Positions 48,805 through 62,843 of a stretch of 64,000 nt of DNA are shown here, piece by piece. The DNA comes from Methanosarcinales archaeon (GTDB lineage: Archaea; Halobacteriota; Methanosarcinia; Methanosarcinales; Methanoperedenaceae). Position 1 is the first letter of the stretch, and every line of letters begins with the position of its first letter. The DNA lies in contig CAJPFJ010000036.1 in NCBI GenBank assembly GCA_905339155.1, positions 1 to 64,000 on the forward strand, given 5' to 3'. The translations under genes and the position numbers were made by a program. The notes under the pieces were generated by a model. The model had not been told where the DNA came from. It worked only from the letters and a program-made list of their open reading frames with translations, and searched no databases.

Positions 48805-49296
48805 TCATTTGCATGAAAGAACTGCCAGAAAAGTCTTAAAGGATTTGCAGTTTTTTCCAAGTGCATCAAAATCCAATTCAGCGGCATATTTTGGAAGGCT
48901 GCTTTTTATATACCCAAATTTAACTTTCAGTTCTTGCGATGGCTTTGAGTGCTGCCATTTTAATTTTTTGCTGATGCATATCCACTCTTCAATTTCATAA
49001 TCTATGAGGATGATTTCGAGCGGAGTTCTCAAGTCATTCGGTACATGACGTTTTACATTTGCGTATCTGGATTCATGATTTTGAGGATCATCAGAATCCA
49101 GAATAATAATTATCTTGTCACAGGAATTATCGAATGACTTCAAAATCCTGTCAAGCTTTAAATTACATAAGGGACGCATCGGTTTTGTGGCTTTAACGGT
49201 TATATTTTCCACCATGTTCTTATTCTTAAGCTGCCCGATCACGTTCTTTAAAAATGCCCCACCGTAATCGTCTTCGGAGATTATTTTAATGTTCAT
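48805..49296 (-). CDS. TOPRIM-like (DUF4276/RloB-like) protein paired with AAA ATPase
   Basis: A 163-residue protein with the spacing of TOPRIM nucleases: ISEDDYGG near the N-terminus (acidic residue first), IIIILDSDDPQNHESR (DxD) in the middle and IDYEIEEWICI later. Small proteins of this kind occur directly after OLD- or AAA_21-type ATPases in defence gene pairs. It starts two bases after the ATPase stop, so they are co-translated. Nuclease activity is inference from motif layout; the exact family would need a profile search. Confidence 0.65.
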   Translation of the reverse strand: MNIKIISEDDYGGAFLKNVIGQLKNKNMVENITVKATKPMRPLCNLKLDRILKSFDNSCDKIIIILDSDDPQNHESRYANVKRHVPNDLRTPLEIILIDYEIEEWICISKKLKWQHSKPSQELKVKFGYIKSSLPKYAAELDFDALGKNCKSFKTFLAVLSCK

Positions 49297-49298
49297 GC

Positions 49299-50687
49299 TT
49301 ACTGTTCGGTCTTTAATAGATCTCCGTAAATCCAGCCCTCGCTGAATGTTATACCTTTTTCTATTAAGAACTCCCTTATTTTATCAGGATCTTTTATCCG
49401 TTTAAATTTGGATTCTCCCTGTTCCTTTTCGACAAGAATAATATCATTTAGCTCTGTCATATCAACTACAACAGGTGAATGCGTGGTGATTATTGCCTGA
49501 TTATCACCTATTTTTATTGTATCCAAAATAAGCTCCAATGTCGATGGATGCAGTGAGTTCTCAATTTCATCGACTATGAGGAGAGGTGGTTTTAAGTAAA
49601 TCGCTATGAGTACAGTCAAAATCTTATATATTCCATCGGAAGTATTCGGTGGTAAAAGTTCAAACCCTTCCTCATAGAATTTTATCATAACCCTGCCATC
49701 GTCAGTAATATGAGGCCGCACATCTATTTTTGGAAAAACCATTGAAAGTGGATTGTAAATTTCTTCTGGAACCTTACCTTCTTTGAGATAAATTGTGTGA
49801 AATACGCTTGCAATATTTGTTCCATCTTCTTTGATGGTTTCTTCTCTTCTAAAGGATTGGGGTATTTTCATAGAGCGAATACTAAGTGGATACAAAATCA
49901 ATAGTTTACGAAAAGATTCTATTATCGAATCTTTTGCAATATCAAAGAGTGATTCAGGAAGTAAAAAAGATGATCCATCTTCAAATTCTTCTGCATAGTA
50001 TATTGCCGGATATAAAACCGTAAGTTCTTCAGGCTTTTTACTTATTTGAGAACTCCATATTGAAGCTGGAAAATTAGACAATATAAAATGTTTGGCAGTC
50101 ATTTTTTCACTGAAATCATCACCCACAGATAAATCGAAAAATGAATAGTCCAAAAGTCTTTCTTCCAAATCTACTTGATATCTTCTCTCTTTTATTAACC
50201 GACTCTTTACTTTTTTTAGCTTTGCATTTGCTTTAGGCGATGCTTCAAATTTTAGAGGATTTTTGATAACATCTTCAATGAAATCTGGATTATGTTTAAT
50301 TGCAATCCATTCACCTTCTTTATAGACTTTTACATAATCCCTGACATCTAATATTTCTCGTAAAATCTGGAATTTCTGCCCCACCCCAGTAAAGCTAGTC
50401 TCAAAATATACATCATAACCTTCAATATCAAAAAGCAGGCCAATAATTATAGGTAGCTCTTCTTTTCTCTGCCATACGACATTGTCATAACCCCACCATT
50501 CTAAAAATGGGAAACTATCTTTATCTGCATAAATCTTCTTTAAAAGCCTGAACGCTTCCACCAAATTCGATTTCCCCGAAGCGTTACCCCCAACCACTAC
50601 ATTCATCTTCCCAATATCGATTTCACAATCATGAAGGCTCTTGAAATTCTTTATAAAAACCTTTTTAAGAGACGCTTTTACCATCAA
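49299..50687 (-). CDS. AAA_21/OLD-like ATPase
   Basis: A 462-residue SMC/ABC-type ATPase: KVFIKNFKSLHDCEIDIG at the N-terminal strand, Walker A VVGGNASGKSNLVEAFRLL, a long coiled middle part, then NTSDGIYKILTVLIAIYLKP, Walker B LLIVDEIENSLHPSTLEL and the ITTHSPVVVD switch. This is the single-protein AAA_15/AAA_21 group related to OLD and RloA. Together with the TOPRIM-like gene it forms a two-gene unit like known phage-defence modules (for example PARIS-type ATPase/TOPRIM pairs). Substrate or trigger unknown. Confidence 0.82.
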   Translation of the reverse strand: MMVKASLKKVFIKNFKSLHDCEIDIGKMNVVVGGNASGKSNLVEAFRLLKKIYADKDSFPFLEWWGYDNVVWQRKEELPIIIGLLFDIEGYDVYFETSFTGVGQKFQILREILDVRDYVKVYKEGEWIAIKHNPDFIEDVIKNPLKFEASPKANAKLKKVKSRLIKERRYQVDLEERLLDYSFFDLSVGDDFSEKMTAKHFILSNFPASIWSSQISKKPEELTVLYPAIYYAEEFEDGSSFLLPESLFDIAKDSIIESFRKLLILYPLSIRSMKIPQSFRREETIKEDGTNIASVFHTIYLKEGKVPEEIYNPLSMVFPKIDVRPHITDDGRVMIKFYEEGFELLPPNTSDGIYKILTVLIAIYLKPPLLIVDEIENSLHPSTLELILDTIKIGDNQAIITTHSPVVVDMTELNDIILVEKEQGESKFKRIKDPDKIREFLIEKGITFSEGWIYGDLLKTEQ

Positions 50688-53175: not shown

Positions 53176-54318
53176 GTGACAAGAAGTTACAACATGCATT
53201 GCTGTATGCTACCCCTTCCGTTTGGGGTAATCCTACTGAGATGTGCGTCAGCGGTAACGCTGGGGTACAAAGCTCTCAGGACAATATGGTAAAAAATTCA
53301 AAAGACTGGTTTGAATGAACTGTTAGGATACGAATACCATGAAGAAAACGAAAGTTGAACCATTGCAAGAGTCGTAAAACGAGATAAGCGAAAATAGTCT
53401 GACACGCTTAAACCAAAAGGTACAGAATCAGACCATAACGGTGCGAACACGTTATGGGGGACGGACATATGATTTTCGGCTTAAAGATGGCTTCTAAAGT
53501 ATTCAAAATATGCATGATGTAGAACTTGGTAAACCCAATATGCTCCAGAAATGAAATGGTAGGAACTCCGTAAGGGGCAACAATGGCATGCAGGGCAGAG
53601 GAATGAGTAAAAAGCGAATGATACTGTGTAATGCGGTATATAAAGGCTCAAAATAGCCTCAATCCGAAAGGATGCTGACTTACTCAACGGTATTTTATTG
53701 TGGAAATGAAGGTAAATCTATGAAAGTAAGAAATTCAACTACATCGAAGGATGAGAAGCTTACTAACGTGCAACTTCAAAACCAGTGGAATAAAACCGAC
53801 TGGAAGAAAGCTGAAGAACACGTCAATAGACTACAAGTCAGGATCACAAAAGCAGTAAAAGCAGGAAAATGGTATCTGGTTAAAAGGTTACAATATTTGA
53901 TAACCCTCTCGCATTATGCGAAACTGTTGGCGGTAAGAAAACCAACTCAAAATACGGGTAAAAGAACGGCAGGGATTGACGGTGAAACATGGTCGTCATC
54001 GAAAACCAAAATGGAAGCCGCTCTCAGACTAACCGATAAAAAGTATATCGCAAAGCCGTTAAAAAGGGTTTTCATTGAAAAACCCGGAAAGAAGAAGAAA
54101 CGACCTTTAGGTATTCCCACCATGTACGATAGAGCGATGCAATCACTCTATGCACTGGCGTTAGAACCGATTGCAGAAGCAACAGGAGACAGGACATCAT
54201 TTGGCTTTAGAAAATTCAGAAGCACACATGATGCCTGTGAACAAGTCTTCGTTTGCATGAGCGGGAAGCATTCTCCCGAATGGGTACTCGAAGGAGATAT
54301 TAAAGGCTGTTTCGACAA

Positions 54319-56517
54319 GTGCGACAAGATAAGTTACATTATGAATTGCCAATGTGCCGTCCCTTCCATTTGGGACGACCCTACCGAGGTATGCGAAGAT
54401 GGTAACGTTTTCGTGTAAAGCCCTCAGGACAATATGGAGAAATTTGAAAGTCCAATTCGAACTATCCGTTAGGGTAAGAATACCAAGAAGAAGCATATGC
54501 TGAATCACCGTAAGAGTCGTCAACAGCGATAAGCGAAAATGGACTGTTAAACGCTTAAACCAAAAGGTACAAAATCCGTCTGGAATGGCTTTGTCAACAT
54601 TACAGAAAATGGACGAAGGGTTTTCGGCTTAGAGGTGACTTCTAAAGTATTTACAAATATTCATAATATAGAACTTGGTAAGCCCGCTGCACTCCTAATA
54701 TGAGGTAGGAGTTCCGCAAGGAGCTGCGAAAGTGCAGAGGGTAGAGGATATGATAAAAAGCGAAGGTCGGTCAGTAACAGACCGAATAGAGGTTCAAAAT
54801 TTGCCTCAACTCGAAAGAGTGCTGACTTATCATTGGTATTTGGTCGTGTGAATGAAGGTAAACCTATGAATGCAAGAAATTCAATTACATCGGAAGATGA
54901 GAAGCTTGCAAACAAGCAATTGAGGAACCAGTGGAATGATATTGACTGGAAGAAAGTTGAAAAACAGGTTAATAGGCTACAAGTCAGAATCACGAAGGCA
55001 GTTAAAGAAGGTAAATGGTATTTGGTAAAAAGGTTGCAGTATCTTTTAACCCACTCCTATTATGCAAAACTGTTAGCAGTTAGGAGACCCACTCAAAATA
55101 AAGGAAAAAGAACGGCAGGGGTCGACGGTGAAACATGGTCATCACCTGAAACCAAGATGAAAGCTGTTCTCAACCTATCGGACGAAAAATATGTCGCAAA
55201 GCCGCTGAAGCGTGTTTTCATTGAAAAACCTGGAAAAAAGAAGAAACGACCCCTGGGTATCCCTACAATGTACGACAGAGCTATGCAATCCCTCTATGCA
55301 TTTGCATTAGAACCAATTGCAGAAACCTTAGCTGATAAGAGGTCATTTGGCTTTAGAAAGTTTAGAAGCACACATGACGCCTGTCAACAAGTCCATCTTT
55401 ATCTGTGCAAGGAGAATTCTCCTGTATGGGTATTGGAAGGTGATATAAAAGGATGTTTTGACATGATATCACATCAGTGGTTAATAAACAGTGTCCCAAT
55501 GGACAAAACAGTTCTAAAGCAATTTTTGAAGGCTGGTTATGTATTTGACCAACATTTATTCCCAACAGAGGCAGGAACTCCACAAGGTGGTATTGTCTCG
55601 CCAATCCTTGCCAATCTGACATTGGATGGGATTGAGGATATACTTGATGATAAATATCACAAGATCAAAAATGGAAGAATAAACAATAAACATGCGGCTA
55701 AATACAAAGTAAATTTTTGTAGATATGCTGATGATTTTATTGTTACTGCTAAAAGCGAGGAAATTGCAAAAGAAGTTAAAGAACTGATAAAAGAATTCCT
55801 GAAGGACAGAGGCTTGGAACTTTCTGATGAGAAAACATTGATAACACATATTGACGAAGGCTTTGATTTTCTAGGATGGAACTTCAGAAAATACAAAGGT
55901 AAACTTCTTGTCAAACCATCCAAGAAATCCATCGATAAATTTACTGAAAATATCAGTAGCGTAATCGATAAGGGAAAAACTTGGAAACAAGAGGAACTGA
56001 TTGATGCTCTTAACCCGATAATAACAGGTTGGTCTAATTATCACCAATTTGTTGTATCCAGTGAAATATTTCACAAGCTTGACCATATAATTTGGAATAT
56101 GCTCTGGCATTGGGCTAAAAGAAGACATCATAATAAACCTAAACAGTGGATTATCAGTAAATACTGGAAATCTTCTGGAAACAGGAAATGGGTGTTTTCT
56201 GGAGGAAATAGACAATTGAATCTTCTATCTGATAAAAAAATAATCAGACATACAAGATTGAAGTTGGATATGAACCCTTTTCTTGATAAAGACTATTTTT
56301 TCCTGCGCAAGTTAAAATTGGGAATCCAGAAACTAACGTTTACAGTAAATAAGGGGTGGGATAAAACAAAGAATATATGCAACCATGAAACAGAGACCAT
56401 TACAAAAAACTGCTGCCCGATTTAAAGGGTTATCGAATGCTTGAGCCGTATGCGATGAAAGTCGCATGTACGGTTCTTAAAGGGCTTGGGGTCGGAAACG
56501 ACCTCTGGCTACTTGAC
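54319..56517 (+). mobile_element. Inner group II intron inserted in the outer intron's RT gene
   Basis: It starts with the canonical GTGCGAC at 54319. A 5' structured region of about 540 bp contains blocks shared with the outer intron (ccctcaggacaatatgg, gcttaaaccaaaaggtac). It encodes its own RT, then has domain V at 56443-56476 (GAGCCGTATGCGATGAAAGT, CGCATGTACGGTTC) and a domain VI stem (ggggtcg/cgacctc) ending TTGAC at 56517. The ends are fixed by the restored reading frame of the host gene. Length 2,199 bp. The homologous site in its own RT gene differs by two bases. Confidence 0.9.
54866..56425 (+). CDS. ltrA: Group II intron reverse transcriptase/maturase (inner intron)
   Basis: A 519-residue intron-encoded protein. 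The RVT_N domain (residues about 15-90, RNQWNDIDWKKVEKQVNRLQ) precedes the RT with RPLGIPTMYDRAMQSLYA, EAGTPQGGIVSPILANL and the catalytic CRYADDFIVTAKS, then the maturase domain X (GWSNYHQFVVSSEIFHKLD). The C-terminus ends NCCPI without an HNH endonuclease domain, so mobility would rely on replication-fork priming. I start at ATG 54866, just after gaaggtaaacct; the frame opens at 54833. It should splice its own intron and perhaps the outer one, whose RT is about 75% similar by eye. Confidence 0.92.
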   Translation: MNARNSITSEDEKLANKQLRNQWNDIDWKKVEKQVNRLQVRITKAVKEGKWYLVKRLQYLLTHSYYAKLLAVRRPTQNKGKRTAGVDGETWSSPETKMKAVLNLSDEKYVAKPLKRVFIEKPGKKKKRPLGIPTMYDRAMQSLYAFALEPIAETLADKRSFGFRKFRSTHDACQQVHLYLCKENSPVWVLEGDIKGCFDMISHQWLINSVPMDKTVLKQFLKAGYVFDQHLFPTEAGTPQGGIVSPILANLTLDGIEDILDDKYHKIKNGRINNKHAAKYKVNFCRYADDFIVTAKSEEIAKEVKELIKEFLKDRGLELSDEKTLITHIDEGFDFLGWNFRKYKGKLLVKPSKKSIDKFTENISSVIDKGKTWKQEELIDALNPIITGWSNYHQFVVSSEIFHKLDHIIWNMLWHWAKRRHHNKPKQWIISKYWKSSGNRKWVFSGGNRQLNLLSDKKIIRHTRLKLDMNPFLDKDYFFLRKLKLGIQKLTFTVNKGWDKTKNICNHETETITKNCCPI

Positions 56518-57573
56518 CATATCTCATCAATGGTTAATAGACAATATCCATTTGGATAAATCGGTTCTAAGACAATTTCTAAAAGCGGGCTTCATATTTG
56601 AACACAAACTATTCCAAACAGAAGCAGGAACTCCACAGGGTGGTATAATATCACCAATTCTTGCTAATATTACATTGGACGGGATTGAGAAACTGCTTGC
56701 AGATAAATACCGCAATAACAAGAACGGTAATAGATATAGTGAACATGCTGCAAAACACAAAGTAAATTATGTTCGTTATGCAGATGATTTTATCGTAACT
56801 GCAAAAACTGAGGAAATAGCTAAAGAAGTCAAAGAACTGATCAAAGACTTCCTGAAAGATAGAGGTCTGGAACTGTCTGATGAGAAAACGATAATTACCC
56901 ATATCGATAACGGCTTTGACTTTCTCGGATGGAATTTCAGAAAGTACAACGGAAAGCTTATTGTTAAACCATCTAATAAATCTATTGAAAAAGTTACTGA
57001 AAAGATCAGTGATACTATCAAGAGAGGAAAAGCATGGAAACAAGAAGATTTAATCAAAACCCTGAATCCAGTTATAACGGGTTGGGCAAATTATCACCAA
57101 CCTGTTGTATCCAGTAAAATATTCCAAAAACTTGATTCAAGGATTTGGGACATGCTCTGGCACTGGGCTAAGAGAAGACACCCTGAAAAATCCAATGAAT
57201 GGATTGCTGATAGATATTGGCATTCAGAAGGAAATCGAAATTGGGTGTTTTCTGAAGGAGATAAGAAACTAAAACTCCTATCGGATACAAAAATTGTCAG
57301 ACATACAAGACTAAAGTTAGATATGAATCCGTATCTTGATAAAGACTATTTTATTGAGCGTAAAATAAAACAGGGAATCAAGAAGCTAAAAAGTACCGCA
57401 AAAAGTGTTTGAGGTAAAATGAAGAATGTAATAAAACCAGAAACCAAGACCATGACAAATAACTGCTGCCCGAATTAAAGGGTTATAAAATGCTTGAGCG
57501 GTATGAAGGGAAACTTTCACGTACCGTTCTGAGAAGAGGGGGAGGGAGCAATCTCTCCTTCTTATTCGGCTTT

Positions 57574-57897: not shown

Positions 57898-58397
57898 TTT
57901 CTTTTTGCGTGAACGCAAGGGCGATAGTTGTTTTGCGCATCCTCTTTAGTGAAAAGGAACAACGTGAGAAATCACATAAACCGCGATTGTCCGAGCACCG
58001 GGAGGCGCAGGACTGTCGTTCAACCTCCTGCAGTAAGTACGCCCGCAGGCGAATTCGGGCAGTGCCCGAACCCATTGGGAGGCGTGCTTAGTGCGGCGCT
58101 AATCACCATCATATTAAATTATTACGTTCAAATGCCGTTAAGTTATTAGTGATTTCTGAGGATATTCTTAAGCGCGGGCGCGCCTTGGCTAATATAGAAT
58201 AAAGCCGAAAGTGAAACAGTAGGCTTTATAGAAATCATACATTTGGAATTTATTAATATATATTATTACAAGTCTCATGTTATGTGAAAAATTATATTTT
58301 TGTGAATAGCCATGCAATGAAAATTATTTCCTTATTCATGATATTCTAATCATCTATATAGTAAAATATTTATAACTTATTAACTCTTAGAGGTTTG
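57898..58397. other. Non-coding region between GC-rich repeat and retron
   Basis: The first 200 bp stay GC-rich with short hairpins (ttgcgtgaacgcaa at about 57906; ttcgggcagtgcccgaa at about 58053), then composition drops to AT-rich and looks like a promoter region for the retron RNA. Short open frames here overlap on both strands and show no family pattern. Confidence 0.5.
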
Positions 58398-58572
58398 TTG
58401 CCCTCAGCTTTGAATTAGCTCTCGCCGGAGAGTTATGTGTGGTGATACATCACGCAAATGGCCTACCAAGCAAAGGTGAAACATCAGTTCAAATATATAT
58501 AATACCTTTGACCGCAACATATAATTTGATAATTATATGCAGTAAAGCGCCCAGCGCTTTAGTGAGGGCAAT
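58397..58572 (+). ncRNA. Retron msr-msd non-coding RNA
   Basis: Terminal inverted repeats a1 ttgccctca (58398-58406) and a2 tgagggcaa (58563-58571) enclose the element. After a1 comes TTAGC (58415-58419) directly before a hairpin ctctc-gccg-gagag, the context of the branching guanosine in retrons such as Ec86; G58418 is the predicted 2'-5' branch base. Further stems are caaaggt/acctttg (58471-58510), catataatt/aattatatg (58518-58539) and taaagcgc/gcgcttta (58543-58561), the last just before a2, as expected of the msd. The RT gene begins about 50 bp downstream. The boundaries of msr versus msd are inferred. Confidence 0.82.
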
Positions 58573-58618
58573 TAAATTTATATAATATACAATGCATAAT
58601 TTGATTTTAGAATAATGA

Positions 58619-60286
58619 GTGAACGATGTGAAAATGGAAATATCAAATAATGAAAAATTGAAAATTTTGTTTGATAGTTATATTGAAACAGCAATAATCC
58701 CAAGCTTAAATGAAGATGAATATAGAAAAGAATTTAAATCATTCAAAAGATTAAAGTCCAAGAAATTGCCATATGTTTATGATATTGATCATTTGAGTAA
58801 CCTAACAAATTCATCTTCAAAGCAGGTCAGATTTTTCTTATCGAATAAGGATATAGGTTATACTACTTTTAGAATTCCAAAAAAAATGGGGGGTTTTAGG
58901 GAAATCAATGCATCATCAAAAAAACTGAAAATAATCCAAAAATGGATTTTAAATAATATATTATATAAGTTGGATTCCAGTGATTATGTATATGGATTTA
59001 TTCCAGGAAAAACAATTTATTCCAATGCCCAAATACATGTAAATCATGACTTAGTTTTAGGGATTGATATAAAAGATTTTTTTCCGAGTATAAAATTTGG
59101 CTCTATTTATCATATCTTCAAATCGGCAGGTTATTCTAACAAAATTGCTTGGACATTCGCCGACCTGTGCACTTATCATTGGAAATTACCTCAAGGAGCG
59201 CCAACAAGTCCTATGTTATCTAATTTGGCAGGTAAACGACTTGATATGAGAATAGCCAAGTATTGCAATAGAAGGCATTTTACTTATTCAAGATATGCCG
59301 ATGATATCACTATTTCGGGCTCATATAAGCTTCCAATGCACAAAGAAAAAATTATCAAGATTATTGAAGGGAATGGGTTTACAGTTAATAAGAAAAAAAC
59401 TAGACTGTTTTCAAAGGGTTCAAGACAGAAAGTAACTGGATTAGTAGTCAATGATAAAGTAAGCATTGGCAGGAAAAAGAAAAAGTGGATAAGAGCAATT
59501 GTACATAATATTTTAATGAATGGTTTCGTTGCCGAAAATAAGGAAAACGATCCTTTTTTTAGGGAAAGAATATTTGGACATTTAGGATATACCAATATGG
59601 TTGATTCTGAATTTGCAAGACCTCTTATCGAGTCACTTAAAAAAATTGATTTGTCAGAATATAATGAAGCTATAATCGAAACACGAGAATCTGAAATAAA
59701 AGTGAATTATTTAAAAAGAAAGTCAAAATCGATTTTAATTAAATTTGATGATCTGGGATTTTTTCAAAAGATTGCCGAGTTTCCGGAAGGTGCATTTAAT
59801 GATGATTTTAAAAATCAAATAAATAATTTACTCGAAAAATGTGAAAAACACGGGGTTGAAGCTTGTAGCGATTGTTTAGACATTAAAAATGAAATATATA
59901 AAAAATGCATGAAATATATTATAGGTCATTATACAGGAACTACAGGGGGACACCATCATGGCCATGAAATTTATGACATGGAAGCTGAAACTCGTCTATT
60001 TGGAAAGACTATTGCTGTTGCTTTTATCATGAAATCAGGGACAAGTGATTCCACTAAAGAAAATAGTATCTTTAGGCAAGTTGCTAAAAGCTTTCGTTTT
60101 GATGGTATTGACCTAATTGGAATAGTAACTACCAGCAATCTAAAAAGTGAATTACTTGAAGATTTGAAAAGTTTGATAATGAATCATAATAATGGCAAAA
60201 AGAAAGAACAGTTGTATTGTTTAATTATGAGACCCGAAATGAAAAGAATATTGTATGATTTTAATAAGGTGGTTACCAATTCATAG
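58619..60286 (+). CDS. Retron reverse transcriptase with C-terminal extension
   Basis: A 555-residue protein. The RT core (about 45-300) has the retron-specific NAxxH motif (SNAQIH, 136-140), LVLGIDIKDFFPSI with catalytic Asp150, LPQGAPTSPMLSNLAG, RYADDITIS (226-232) and the retron VTG motif (QKVTGLVV, 272-274). Retron RTs are usually about 300-350 residues; the extra 230 residues include a Cys pattern (Cys408, Cys416, Cys419, Cys430), HHHGH (445-449) and an alpha/beta part with AVAFIMKSG and LIGIVTTSNLKSELLEDL, resembling a restriction-endonuclease-like fold. This tail may be the toxic effector. Starts at GTG 58619, GTG 58628 or ATG 58634 are all possible. Confidence 0.9.
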   Translation: MNDVKMEISNNEKLKILFDSYIETAIIPSLNEDEYRKEFKSFKRLKSKKLPYVYDIDHLSNLTNSSSKQVRFFLSNKDIGYTTFRIPKKMGGFREINASSKKLKIIQKWILNNILYKLDSSDYVYGFIPGKTIYSNAQIHVNHDLVLGIDIKDFFPSIKFGSIYHIFKSAGYSNKIAWTFADLCTYHWKLPQGAPTSPMLSNLAGKRLDMRIAKYCNRRHFTYSRYADDITISGSYKLPMHKEKIIKIIEGNGFTVNKKKTRLFSKGSRQKVTGLVVNDKVSIGRKKKKWIRAIVHNILMNGFVAENKENDPFFRERIFGHLGYTNMVDSEFARPLIESLKKIDLSEYNEAIIETRESEIKVNYLKRKSKSILIKFDDLGFFQKIAEFPEGAFNDDFKNQINNLLEKCEKHGVEACSDCLDIKNEIYKKCMKYIIGHYTGTTGGHHHGHEIYDMEAETRLFGKTIAVAFIMKSGTSDSTKENSIFRQVAKSFRFDGIDLIGIVTTSNLKSELLEDLKSLIMNHNNGKKKEQLYCLIMRPEMKRILYDFNKVVTNS

Positions 60287-60329: not shown

Positions 60330-60349
60330 CTATTGTAAAAGTTACAATA
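60330..60349. repeat. CTATTGTAA palindrome copy 1
   Basis: ctattgtaa-aag-ttacaata, 44 bp after the retron RT stop. It is the first of three similar palindromes here and could act as a terminator or protein-binding site. Confidence 0.6.
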
Positions 60350-60383
60350 CATGCATGAAAAATTATGTTAGCAAATTCTTATG

Positions 60384-60405
60384 CTATTGTAACTTATTAC
60401 AATAG
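60384..60405. repeat. CTATTGTAA palindrome copy 2
   Basis: Perfect arms ctattgtaa and ttacaatag around ctta, ending five bases before the ATG of the broken small gene at 60411. Its position suggests an operator or an element end. Confidence 0.7.
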
Positions 60406-60410
60406 ACACT

Positions 60411-60686
60411 ATGGGGAAAGAATTCATTCGAGAAATTGGGAGCCATAAGTACAAATATCTTGTATATTGGGACAAGAGTGAAAAGAAATAAAAACAAAAG
60501 TACTTGGGAAGAGTGGATATTGAAAAAACAATAATTTTGAAGATGCCTACTGAAAAAGAAGCTGCTGAAGCCATAATAAAGATAGGAGGAGGTTTAATAG
60601 AACGTAAACATTTGGAAAAATGGATTAAAAGATTGAAATTTAAAGAGAACATGGATATATTGAAGAATCTGTTTGTTGAACAATGA
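60411..60686 (+). pseudogene. Small gene with an in-frame TAA
   Basis: From ATG 60411 the frame reads MGKEFIREIGSHKYKYLVYW, DKSEKK, a TAA at 60489-60491, then continues in the same frame KQKYLGRVDIEKTIILKMPT to a TGA at 60686. The pattern Ile-Gly-x-His-Lys-Tyr ... Lys-Tyr-Leu-Gly-Arg-Val-Asp is common in Methanosarcinales accessory genes and spans the stop, so one gene of 91 codons has been interrupted. A TTG at 60504 could restart a 60-residue protein. It is bracketed by two palindromes. Confidence 0.6.
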
Positions 60687-60692
60687 TTTTAG

Positions 60693-60714
60693 CTATTGTA
60701 ACCAGTTACAATAG
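60693..60714. repeat. CTATTGTAA palindrome copy 3
   Basis: Perfect 10-bp arms ctattgtaac and gttacaatag separated by ca, seven bases after the stop of the broken small gene. Together with copy 2 it frames a unit of about 330 bp. Confidence 0.7.
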
Positions 60715-60944
60715 TATAAAATAAGTTACCAATGGTTTTAGGCAGGCGTTGGTAACCACCAATAAGAAAGAGTTAGATTAAATTTGTATATAAAAACAAT
60801 GAAAGTATATGCAAAAAATTGCTTGTTTTTAGATCAATCCTTTATTTTTCAACACATTAGGATAACTACCAACACGAATTGAAATCCCCCAAAACCGACA
60901 AAACTTTAAGCTTAATTGCTGTGTAGATGCCTTAAAGTGATAAA

Positions 60945-62843
60945 ATGCAGATACTACTTATTCATTCGGATTTTATAGAATATGAAACCAAAAAAAGCAC
61001 GCCTGTTGCTGAGAAAATAGATGACGACCTCAAGAAAGGCAGGATGGAAGAAGTTCTTGCTGTTTTTGTAGCTGTTGAGAAAAGCGACGAAGATAAACTT
61101 GAATCTGCTGCTTCTCAGGCTGTTACCGAAATAAAAAAGGTCACCGAACAGGTAAAAACAAATCGTGTGATGTTATACCCGTATGCACACCTGAGTTCAA
61201 GTCTTTCATCACCAAAAACAGCGATCGAAACATTGAAAAAAATCGAGGAATTACTTAAAGAAGCCCGGTTTGAAGTCAAACGAGCCCCATTTGGCTGGTA
61301 TAAATCCTTCACAATAAAATGCAAAGGGCATCCCCTCTCTGAACTTTCAAGAACAATCAGGATCGGCGAAGAAAAATGCATTACGGTAATAAAGGAAAAA
61401 GAAGAAGTTGTTTCAGAAGCCCTGAAATCCGAAGCAAAAGCCGTATCCTACTGGCATATTTTAACACCGGGTGGTGAATTGCTAAAACCGGAGGAATTTG
61501 ATTTTAAGGGGCATGATAATCTTAAGAAGTTCGTGAATTATGAGATACACAAGAGCCGGGCAGTGGACAGGATCCCGCCGCATGTTGAACTCATGAGAAG
61601 GCTTGAGCTTGCTGATTATGAACCTGGCTCTGACTCCGGGAACATGCGCTTTTATCCAAAGGGCAGGCTCATGAAGAGCCTCATTGAAAATTACGTCCTG
61701 GAAGAGACCGCAAAAATGGGTGCAATGGAAGTTGAGACGCCTTTGATGTATGATATGAACCATCCGACATTGAAGAAATATCTTGACCGCTTCCCTGCGC
61801 GCCAGTATTCCATAGAAGCTGACAAAAAGCAGCTATTCCTTCGCTTTGCGGCATGTTTCGGGCAGTTCCTGATGAACCACGATATGACTATTTCATACAG
61901 GAACCTGCCTCTTAGAATGGTAGAACTAACACGCTACAGCTTCAGAAAAGAGCAAAGCGGTGAACTTGTGGGACTGCGCCGCCTGCGCGCATTCACCATG
62001 CCTGATATGCACTCTTTGTGCAAGGATATGGATGAGGCGGTAGAACAGTTCAATGAACAGTACAATATGTGCATAAATGTTCTCTCAAAGATCGGCATTG
62101 ACCTTTCGGATTTTGAAGTAGCTATACGCTTTACCAGGGATTTCTATGAAGAGAACAGGGATTTCATTGTAGGACTTGTTAAAACTGTCAATAAACCAGT
62201 GCTGATAGAACTCTGGGACCAGAGGTTTTTCTATTTCGTCCTGAAGTTCGAGTTCAATTACATAGATGCCATGGACAAGGCAAGCGCCTTATCAACTGTA
62301 CAGATCGATGTTGAAAACGCCGAACGTTACGGAATAAAATATATTGATTCAACAGGTGCGGAAAAAAGACCTTTTATCCTTCATTGCTCACCAAGCGGCG
62401 CTATTGAAAGATGCATCTATGCGCTCCTTGAAAAAGCCAATATGAACTCGGAGAAAGGAATTGTCCCCATGTTCCCTGTCTGGCTTTCACCCACGCAGGT
62501 GCGAGTGATACCTGTTGCGGAAAAACACATGGAATATGCGGAAAAAGTCGCAGGAGAACTGAACGGCAGGGTTGACATTGATGACCGTGAAGAGACGGTT
62601 GGCAAGAAGATCCGCGACGCTGGAAAGGAATGGATACCGTATGTGGCAGTGGTTGGAGATGAGGAAGTTACGGGCGGGAATATTACCGTTACAATAAGGA
62701 GCGAATCTATGCCGAATAAGCCTGTTAATGTAAAAATGAGCATTAATGAACTAAATGAAAGGATTTCAAAAGATATCTCCGGATTCCCATTCAAGAGCCA
62801 TCCGCTTGCTGTGAAATTGTCGGTGAGGCCCAGGTTCGTTTAA
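60945..62843 (+). CDS. thrS: Threonyl-tRNA synthetase, archaeal type
   Basis: A 632-residue class II synthetase. The N-terminal 140 residues, [20 protein letters not shown] and [20 protein letters not shown], form the archaeal D-aminoacyl-tRNA deacylase-like editing domain that removes serine. The catalytic core has motif 2 [20 protein letters not shown] and motif 3 [20 protein letters not shown], and the C-terminal anticodon-binding domain starts at [20 protein letters not shown]. Normal length. It stands alone, with a TATA-like stretch about 40 bp upstream. Confidence 0.96.

Follow-up and report, generated by a model that had tools for sequence, protein, structure and literature searches.

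The DNA analysed here, 64,000 nucleotides from a contig of a methane-cycling Methanosarcinales archaeon of the Methanoperedenaceae (referred to below as the window), carries what we regard, with a probability of roughly 0.8, as an intact one-gene archaeal retron, probably acquired horizontally, with a fused C-terminal domain as its effector. Retrons are small elements of the virus-defence type that turn RNA of their own into DNA. The element consists of a structured RNA (58397–58572) and, after a gap of 46 nt, a 555-codon frame (58619–60286) encoding a retron reverse transcriptase (RT) joined to that domain, called module A; RNA and gene lie on the plus strand, as do all parts of the element described below. 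The initial annotation had proposed an intact archaeal retron from the anatomy of RNA and RT, and that part stands, but the 212-residue C-terminal module within the same span had gone unmentioned. As judged from the anatomy of the sequence, a real and intact retron is supported.

The retron RNA and its reverse transcriptase

The RNA is closed by the arms a1 (58397–58406) and a2 (58563–58572), in which, as annotated, 58398–58406 (TTGCCCTCA) and 58563–58571 (TGAGGGCAA) form a perfect 9-bp pair; a G-U pair between 58397 and 58572 lengthens the stem to 10 bp, nine Watson–Crick pairs plus the G-U. When 58397–58618 was dinucleotide-shuffled 1000 times, 35 of the shuffles had a pair of at least 9 bp (arm spacings of 120–220), and the a1/a2 pair was rejected as a proof by itself, since 3.5% is expected by chance. 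Inside this closure, stem-loop 1 (58416–58435; 8 bp, GCCG loop) and stem-loop 2 (58436–58456; 9 bp) are followed by a third hairpin, which the fold of the window places at 58471–58510 (CAAAGGTG/TACCTTTG) and where several relatives have a AAAGGTAAACCTTT-like element, by an msd stem (58518–58539; 9 bp in the fold) whose counterpart in relatives differs in sequence and length, and by the terminal msd hairpin (58543–58561), which adjoins a2. The folding energy of 58380–58618 is −64.8 kcal/mol versus a mean of −47.5 ± 4.4 kcal/mol for shuffled sequences (z −3.9), and none of 200 shuffles is as low. A TATA-box-like promoter element, TTTATA (58369–58374), is located 28 nt upstream of a1; TTTATA or TATATA is found at −28 to −31 from a1 at seven of the ten homologous loci and is absent in genomes G448, G308 and G466. 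No Rfam family lies above threshold at the retron RNA, and two weak Rfam matches, the first antisense to the RNA and the second within the RT gene, belong to unrelated families and were discarded.

The G directly 3′ of a1 (58407) is invariant in all ten RNAs. This concerns its position; by analogy with known retrons, it is the likely branching guanosine, whose 2′-OH would act as the primer. The initial annotation had instead stressed a TTAGC (58415–58419) immediately before a hairpin, but four of its five bases lie inside the stem of 58416–58435, and it was dropped as a retron signature because relatives have TTAAC, TTATC, TTCTC and others, without conservation. On the same analogy, G58407 is the likelier branch point of the two.

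An RNA of this kind stands directly upstream of the RT at all ten loci of the archaeal clade, which comprises the window's genome (G000), G430, G403, G192, G427, G416, G406, G308, G448 and G466. Covariation was scored for these ten RNAs in an alignment made from sequence only (A2), over a four-helix structure of 35 pairs and against 500 shuffles. Within this structure 93.9% of the cells are paired, and two-sided changes are seen at 13 of the 35 pairs versus 4.7 ± 1.4 in the shuffled alignments and in 21 cells versus 6.4, no shuffle being as high in either measure. Sliding the partners by one to three columns lowers pairing to 34–54%, a control in which the structure, drawn from the G430 RNA, is favoured. 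The initial annotation had proposed that a1/a2 be examined for covariation among homologues, and this helix, with 98.2% of its cells paired, has compensatory changes at 6 of 11 pairs; stem-loop 1 has 91.1% of cells paired and both partners changed in 4 of its 8 pairs, stem-loop 2 95.6% and 1 of 9, and the terminal hairpin 88.1% and 2 of 7. When each RNA is folded singly, the a1/a2 stem and stem-loop 1 form in ten of ten, a stem-loop-2-like hairpin in nine (G430 prefers another) and the terminal hairpin in nine (G308 lacks it). The annotated msd-like stems are thus borne out by fold energy and covariation together, and because compensatory changes occur across species, the RNA fold is, on the evidence of these alignments, one kept by long selection.

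The frame directly downstream of the RNA (GTG start, with an in-frame ATG at 58634) contains both annotated retron hallmarks, NAxxH and VTG. Its RT domain (58619–59647) holds NAQIH at residue 136 (59024), QGAPTSP at 192, YADD at 226 (59294) and VTG at 272 (59432), and RVT_1 is the only Pfam family found on the whole protein. The placement with retron RTs, also foreseen by the initial annotation, is borne out by several comparisons. The NCBIfam model retron_St85_RT gives 253.9 bits, above its cut-off of 235, whereas the group II maturase model gives 56.6 bits (cut-off 300) and Drt2 37.5 bits, far below its cut-off; the top PADLOC model is RT_III-A (3.8e-100), followed by RT_II-A (2.5e-94); and the top solved structures in the PDB are retron Ec86 RTs (8e-53).

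Trees agree with this placement. A 20-row tree groups the nine archaeal RTs in a single clade (support 96/93), which has no settled position relative to the III-A and one-gene (I-C/XI) references; the five III-A references do not form one clade, and the II-A/I-A-like references stand apart. The ten bacterial references of this tree are all PADLOC-typed, and G347, the group II maturase, Methylobacterium L049 and Lactiplantibacillus L045 were dropped from it. A first tree of 24 rows had long branches and joined G347 to the group II maturase. Both trees were built without the broken G466 copy and the broken RT of L042, from retron RTs and, in the first tree only, one group II maturase, with RTs of diversity-generating retroelements and CRISPR systems left aside.

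The fused module and its replacement among relatives

Module A (59648–60283; residues 344–555, 212 residues) belongs to no catalogued family. The copy in the window matches none in Pfam, PHROGs, NCBIfam or PADLOC, Toprim, TIR and protease families included; among the 25 of 51 PADLOC matches listed, those of the I-C, XI and XII models fall on the RT part, one of them (XII) extending to residue 423. The copies in relatives give weak, unrelated matches in the family libraries. A profile search of the PDB had no match (best E 0.4), plasmids gave none for the copies of the window and of G308, phages gave none, and IMG/VR gave pattern matches but no relative; a contig scan, limited in reach to close relatives, returned a single relative. 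The module is fused to the RT in the window, G430, G403, G192, G427 and G308, and is present as an uninterrupted piece in G466, with identities to the window copy of 59–67% for four of these, 33% for G308 and 38% for G466 (7-row alignment). Its profile finds one distant protein, of 473 residues, in genome G278 (E 2.1e-5).

The residues invariant in all eight sequences, G278 included, comprise among others C408, H411, C416 and C419 (59840–59875), which may bind zinc; H446, G448, E450 and D453 of an HxGHExxD motif (59954–59977); K472 (60032); Q487 (60077); and Y533. Because of these invariant Cys, His, Glu, Asp and Lys residues, the likeliest reading of module A is a metal-dependent enzyme stabilised by zinc, and nuclease activity is our first guess. 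PD-(D/E)XK nucleases have a recognisable fold with an ExK motif on a core strand; in module A the invariant K472 has I, V or L two positions ahead of it, and the fold prediction is of low confidence. Judged by its sequence, module A is a candidate for a new type of effector.

The distant G278 protein (L038 5524–7309, minus strand) is a non-retron protein with a long N-terminal part and a module-A-like end. It adjoins a gene that by eye could encode a nucleotidyltransferase (Pfam Polbeta 0.035, below the cut-off), and the two may constitute a separate two-gene conflict system.

In G406 and G416 the RNA and the RT are kept, whereas the C-terminus is replaced by another domain, module B. A profile comparison of modules A and B aligned just the linker, the first 34 residues, with a probability of 11%. 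Module B resembles the tails of NACHT antiphage proteins (EruA, 4.1e-7 and 1.2e-4; HyoA, 6.6e-4 and 3.4e-3), with matches far below the full-protein cut-offs of those models, and it is also found in 2 of 196 genomes where no clade retron RT was found. In genome G448 a module-B-like domain runs into a nitrilase domain (PADLOC CARF-nitrilase, 8.1e-92), which matches the nitrilase models of defence-associated reverse transcriptases (DRT) at 4.4e-16 (RT_UG5-nitrilase) and 3e-13. The gene for this fusion (L027 4292–6901) is an 869-codon frame with one in-frame TAG near its start. The TAG is possibly a pyrrolysine codon, as may occur in this family, or else an error.

The RT of G427 appears to join two histories. 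Its middle (alignment columns 90–270) is 77% identical to that of G406, and its RNA is also nearest to G406 (71%), whereas its last part (columns 310–343) is 73–79% identical to module-A RTs versus 45–55% to module-B RTs, and its C-terminus is of the A kind. A single clade for all module-A RTs is not clearly rejected (approximately unbiased test, p-AU 0.07; 0.28 when G308 is left out), so it is the pattern of identities and not the tree that speaks for a mosaic history of G427. Since the RNA and RT middle are G406-like while the RT end and C-terminus are of the A kind, the effector was probably exchanged, to judge from these sequences, as the RNA and most of the RT stayed. With RT-related frames aside, no neighbour gene recurs in more than two of ten neighbourhoods, the sole shared one being found in G406 and G448 (31% identity). 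With a fused module and no consistent partner gene, the evidence favours a one-gene retron that has its C-terminal module as effector, and the family looks like a set of one-gene RT-effector retrons with interchangeable effectors. Module replacement, the nitrilase included, would amount to retron sensors being re-armed.

Among known systems, the nearest RTs by hidden Markov model are those of type III-A retrons (retron St85 family; examples are on Vagococcus (L044) and Priestia (L040) plasmids), for Priestia also by tblastn; the window RT is 40% identical to that of L044 over 253 residues, and the stretches directly upstream of the L044 and L040 RTs, folded without a shuffle control, likewise form stem-loops. 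Unlike these, which have separate partner genes, the archaeal element is one gene with a fused module; its RNA sequence is not alike by eye, and its RTs form their own clade. Type III-A retrons are described with neighbouring phosphoribosyltransferase and DNA-binding genes (PMC12548924), and among the open reading frames of the window beside the RT none of these was recognised by eye. The single polypeptide of RT and C-terminal effector, accompanied by an RNA, is the arrangement of Retron-Eco2/Ec67 (type I-C, RT-Toprim), type XI (RT-protease) and type XII (RT-TIR), but the window RT is nearer to III-A and II-A than to I-C, and no Toprim, TIR or protease family was found in module A. Eco2 is reported to form a trimer that inhibits itself and is kept together by its RNA, with the phage nuclease DenB as the trigger (PMC12405507). 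Like the DRT1-type RT-nitrilase (UG/Abi class 3), the G448 protein joins an RT to a defence-type nitrilase; unlike DRT1, for which untemplated, protein-primed DNA synthesis is described (PMC13275509), its RT is a retron RT with an msr-msd-like RNA upstream. In the literature covered, nitrilase is tied to DRT systems, and PADLOC also ties it to CARF proteins.

Genome G430 is probably Methanosarcina acetivorans, and its copy is probably the same element as a retron RT already reported from an archaeon. That report, Rest and Mindell 2003 as cited in PMC6868368, concerns a putative retron RT in M. acetivorans and, in the citing text, mentions the RT only. In the literature covered, archaeal retrons figure just as RT genes or passing mentions, and none of the titles and abstract openings surveyed describes such RNAs or fused modules. 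Within the reach of that survey, the RNA covariation, the fused module and its replacement among relatives are new to this earlier record.

Proposed mode of action and competing explanations

In the mechanism that we propose, an RNA of about 180 nt would start near a1 from the TATA promoter. Reasoning from its anatomy and from known retrons, the RT would bind the 5′ part of the RNA (stem-loops 1 and 2), and DNA synthesis would be primed by the 2′-OH of G58407, the enzyme copying leftwards from beside a2 (~58562) through the terminal and variable hairpins and yielding a branched RNA–DNA product, the multicopy single-stranded DNA (msDNA) of retrons. RT and msDNA together would keep module A, on the same polypeptide, inactive; attack on the msDNA by a virus, or alteration of it, would release the module to damage the infected cell. 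As the RNA half of the system is backed by covariation, branched msDNA in an archaeon becomes directly testable, and the G430 copy, probably in the culturable and genetically tractable M. acetivorans, is a place for that experiment.

An alternative that keeps the retron takes module A as an accessory nucleic-acid-binding or assembly domain, with the effector elsewhere or lost. Module A indeed has no enzyme match, a zinc ribbon could account for its Cys/His set, and III-A retrons use separate effector genes (a phosphoribosyltransferase and a small protein beside the L044 RT). Nevertheless, module A occupies the place of the Toprim, TIR and protease effectors in the one-gene retrons of PADLOC, relatives swap in defence-type modules such as the nitrilase, and no consistent partner gene was found; we consider an accessory role unlikely. 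Still less probable is that the retron has decayed or fallen silent, persists by chance and makes no msDNA. The sporadic occurrence in 1 of 60 genomes, the broken G466 copy and the RT-free copies of the RNA (see below) would suit such decay, but the window copy is full-length with all RT motifs, a structured RNA and a promoter-like box, and the fold has been under long selection, as its compensatory changes in different species show. We give hardly any credence to a reading in which the RNA regulates, as a leader acting in cis, an RT with another role, of the UG/Abi-type DRT or intron-derived kind: group II introns with maturase frames do lie just upstream (53210–57570) and many genes can have structured leaders, yet the RT scores 253.9 bits with the retron model versus 56.6 for group II and 37.5 for Drt2, a1/a2 closes the whole RNA beside an invariant G, as in retrons, and the RNA meets no Rfam family at threshold.

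Several results count against an intact retron armed with module A. One of five covariation measures, further pair types, gives 26 versus 23.3 and is reached by 50 of 500 shuffles, and the archaeal branch of the first tree has a support of 55/94, though it is present in 96% of 200 bootstrap trees. That just one of the 60 near relatives, the window's own genome, has the protein is what a mobile defence gene would give, but a passing insertion would do so too. In AlphaFold models of the full protein (11 rows), blocks of module A score 26–54, versus mostly 65–92 for the RT, and module A alone (8 rows) has a mean of 37; with no recognised fold, its enzymatic nature is guessed from the invariant residues. 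Finally, a partner encoded elsewhere in the genome is conceivable.

Distribution, RNA copies apart from an RT and genomic surroundings

Three overlapping sets of genomes were searched for the protein. Among 60 near relatives it is present in the window's own genome only; of 392 genomes drawn from the phylum ten have it, two of which (G281 and G347) carry distant RTs; and it occurs in 8 of 111 genomes of the family of G430. In the G466 copy (L028 3769–5638) the RNA still folds, whereas the RT frame is broken at several places.

A covariance model of the 5′ half of the RNA (R1) finds it in 11 of the 392 phylum genomes and, at E 0.05, in 17 of the 111 family genomes, and some of these copies lie where no retron RT was found; one match, in G447 (E 0.0115), resembles coding sequence and was not counted. 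The RT-free loci, in Methanosarcinaceae, are L060, L062–L068, L069–L074, L077–L079 and L081–L084. In a model-fitted alignment, pairing reaches 88.1% in stem-loop 1, where both partners change in 4 of the 8 pairs, and 71.5% in stem-loop 2; two-sided pairs number 7 versus 4.9, a value that 56 of 500 shuffles reach, and the covariation score is reached by none of the 500. The a2 arm is lost in these copies, the best partner of a1 matching 7–9 of 12 bases versus 10–11 in the ten retrons, a comparison in which the best stretch of the window, at 10, was not a2 itself.

In ten Methanosarcinaceae genomes the RT-free RNA precedes a gene for an Mrr nuclease (PF04471, 3e-31 and 1.1e-30). Of the 11 closest Mrr loci 10 have it, with weak matches (E ~0.001) at two of these, and of 14 other Mrr loci none does. 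A hydrophobic N-terminus suggests that this Mrr protein has a membrane anchor. In six genomes a second RNA copy follows the Mrr gene; contig 124 of G278 has one RNA copy and no Mrr match near it, and the RT-free copy of G360 has a maturase-like frame nearby. These RNAs are either relics or an exapted leader, and the copies at Mrr raise the question of effector control by a retron RNA with no reverse transcription involved. We would put forward, tentatively and with more doubt than conviction, a wider picture in which archaea of methanogen lineages have their own retron clade, its RNA–RT unit recombined with interchangeable fused effectors (the zinc-type module A, the NACHT-protein-like module B, and module B with a nitrilase), and in which the RNA has broken away from the RT and, as a leader before and often also behind the Mrr gene of Methanosarcinaceae, serves as a retron-derived switch for a nuclease.

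The next gene downstream of the retron (60945–62843), by eye a threonyl-tRNA synthetase gene, was found in 18 of 19 further genomes and shows 86–93% identity in matches of the same genus, from which it follows that the contig belongs to the lineage. In nine relatives the last 52–78 bases before this gene align and the rest of the 1500 bases upstream differs, apart from three short scattered matches. The G+C content is about 30% in the retron versus 42–45% in the downstream gene. Given the differing flank and the low G+C content, the retron seems to occupy a variable insertion site.

Just upstream of the retron are the 5′ parts (53210–53357 and 54358–54502) and 3′ parts (56441–56517 and 57494–57570) of group II introns with maturase frames, so arranged that one intron apparently lies inside the maturase gene of the other, in a twintron-like nest (53210–57570). 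Further upstream, on the minus strand, an AAA ATPase gene (AAA_21/AAA_15) and a small partner gene, together at 48805–50687, are like candidate defence pairs; the ATPase matches HEC-01A at 1.2e-34 and the partner is mad4-like at 0.0026 only. Downstream of the retron, at 60335–60720, repeated CTATTGTAAC..GTTACAATAG-like palindromes, noted by eye, surround an early-stop frame, an arrangement that may be the remnant of a small mobile element.

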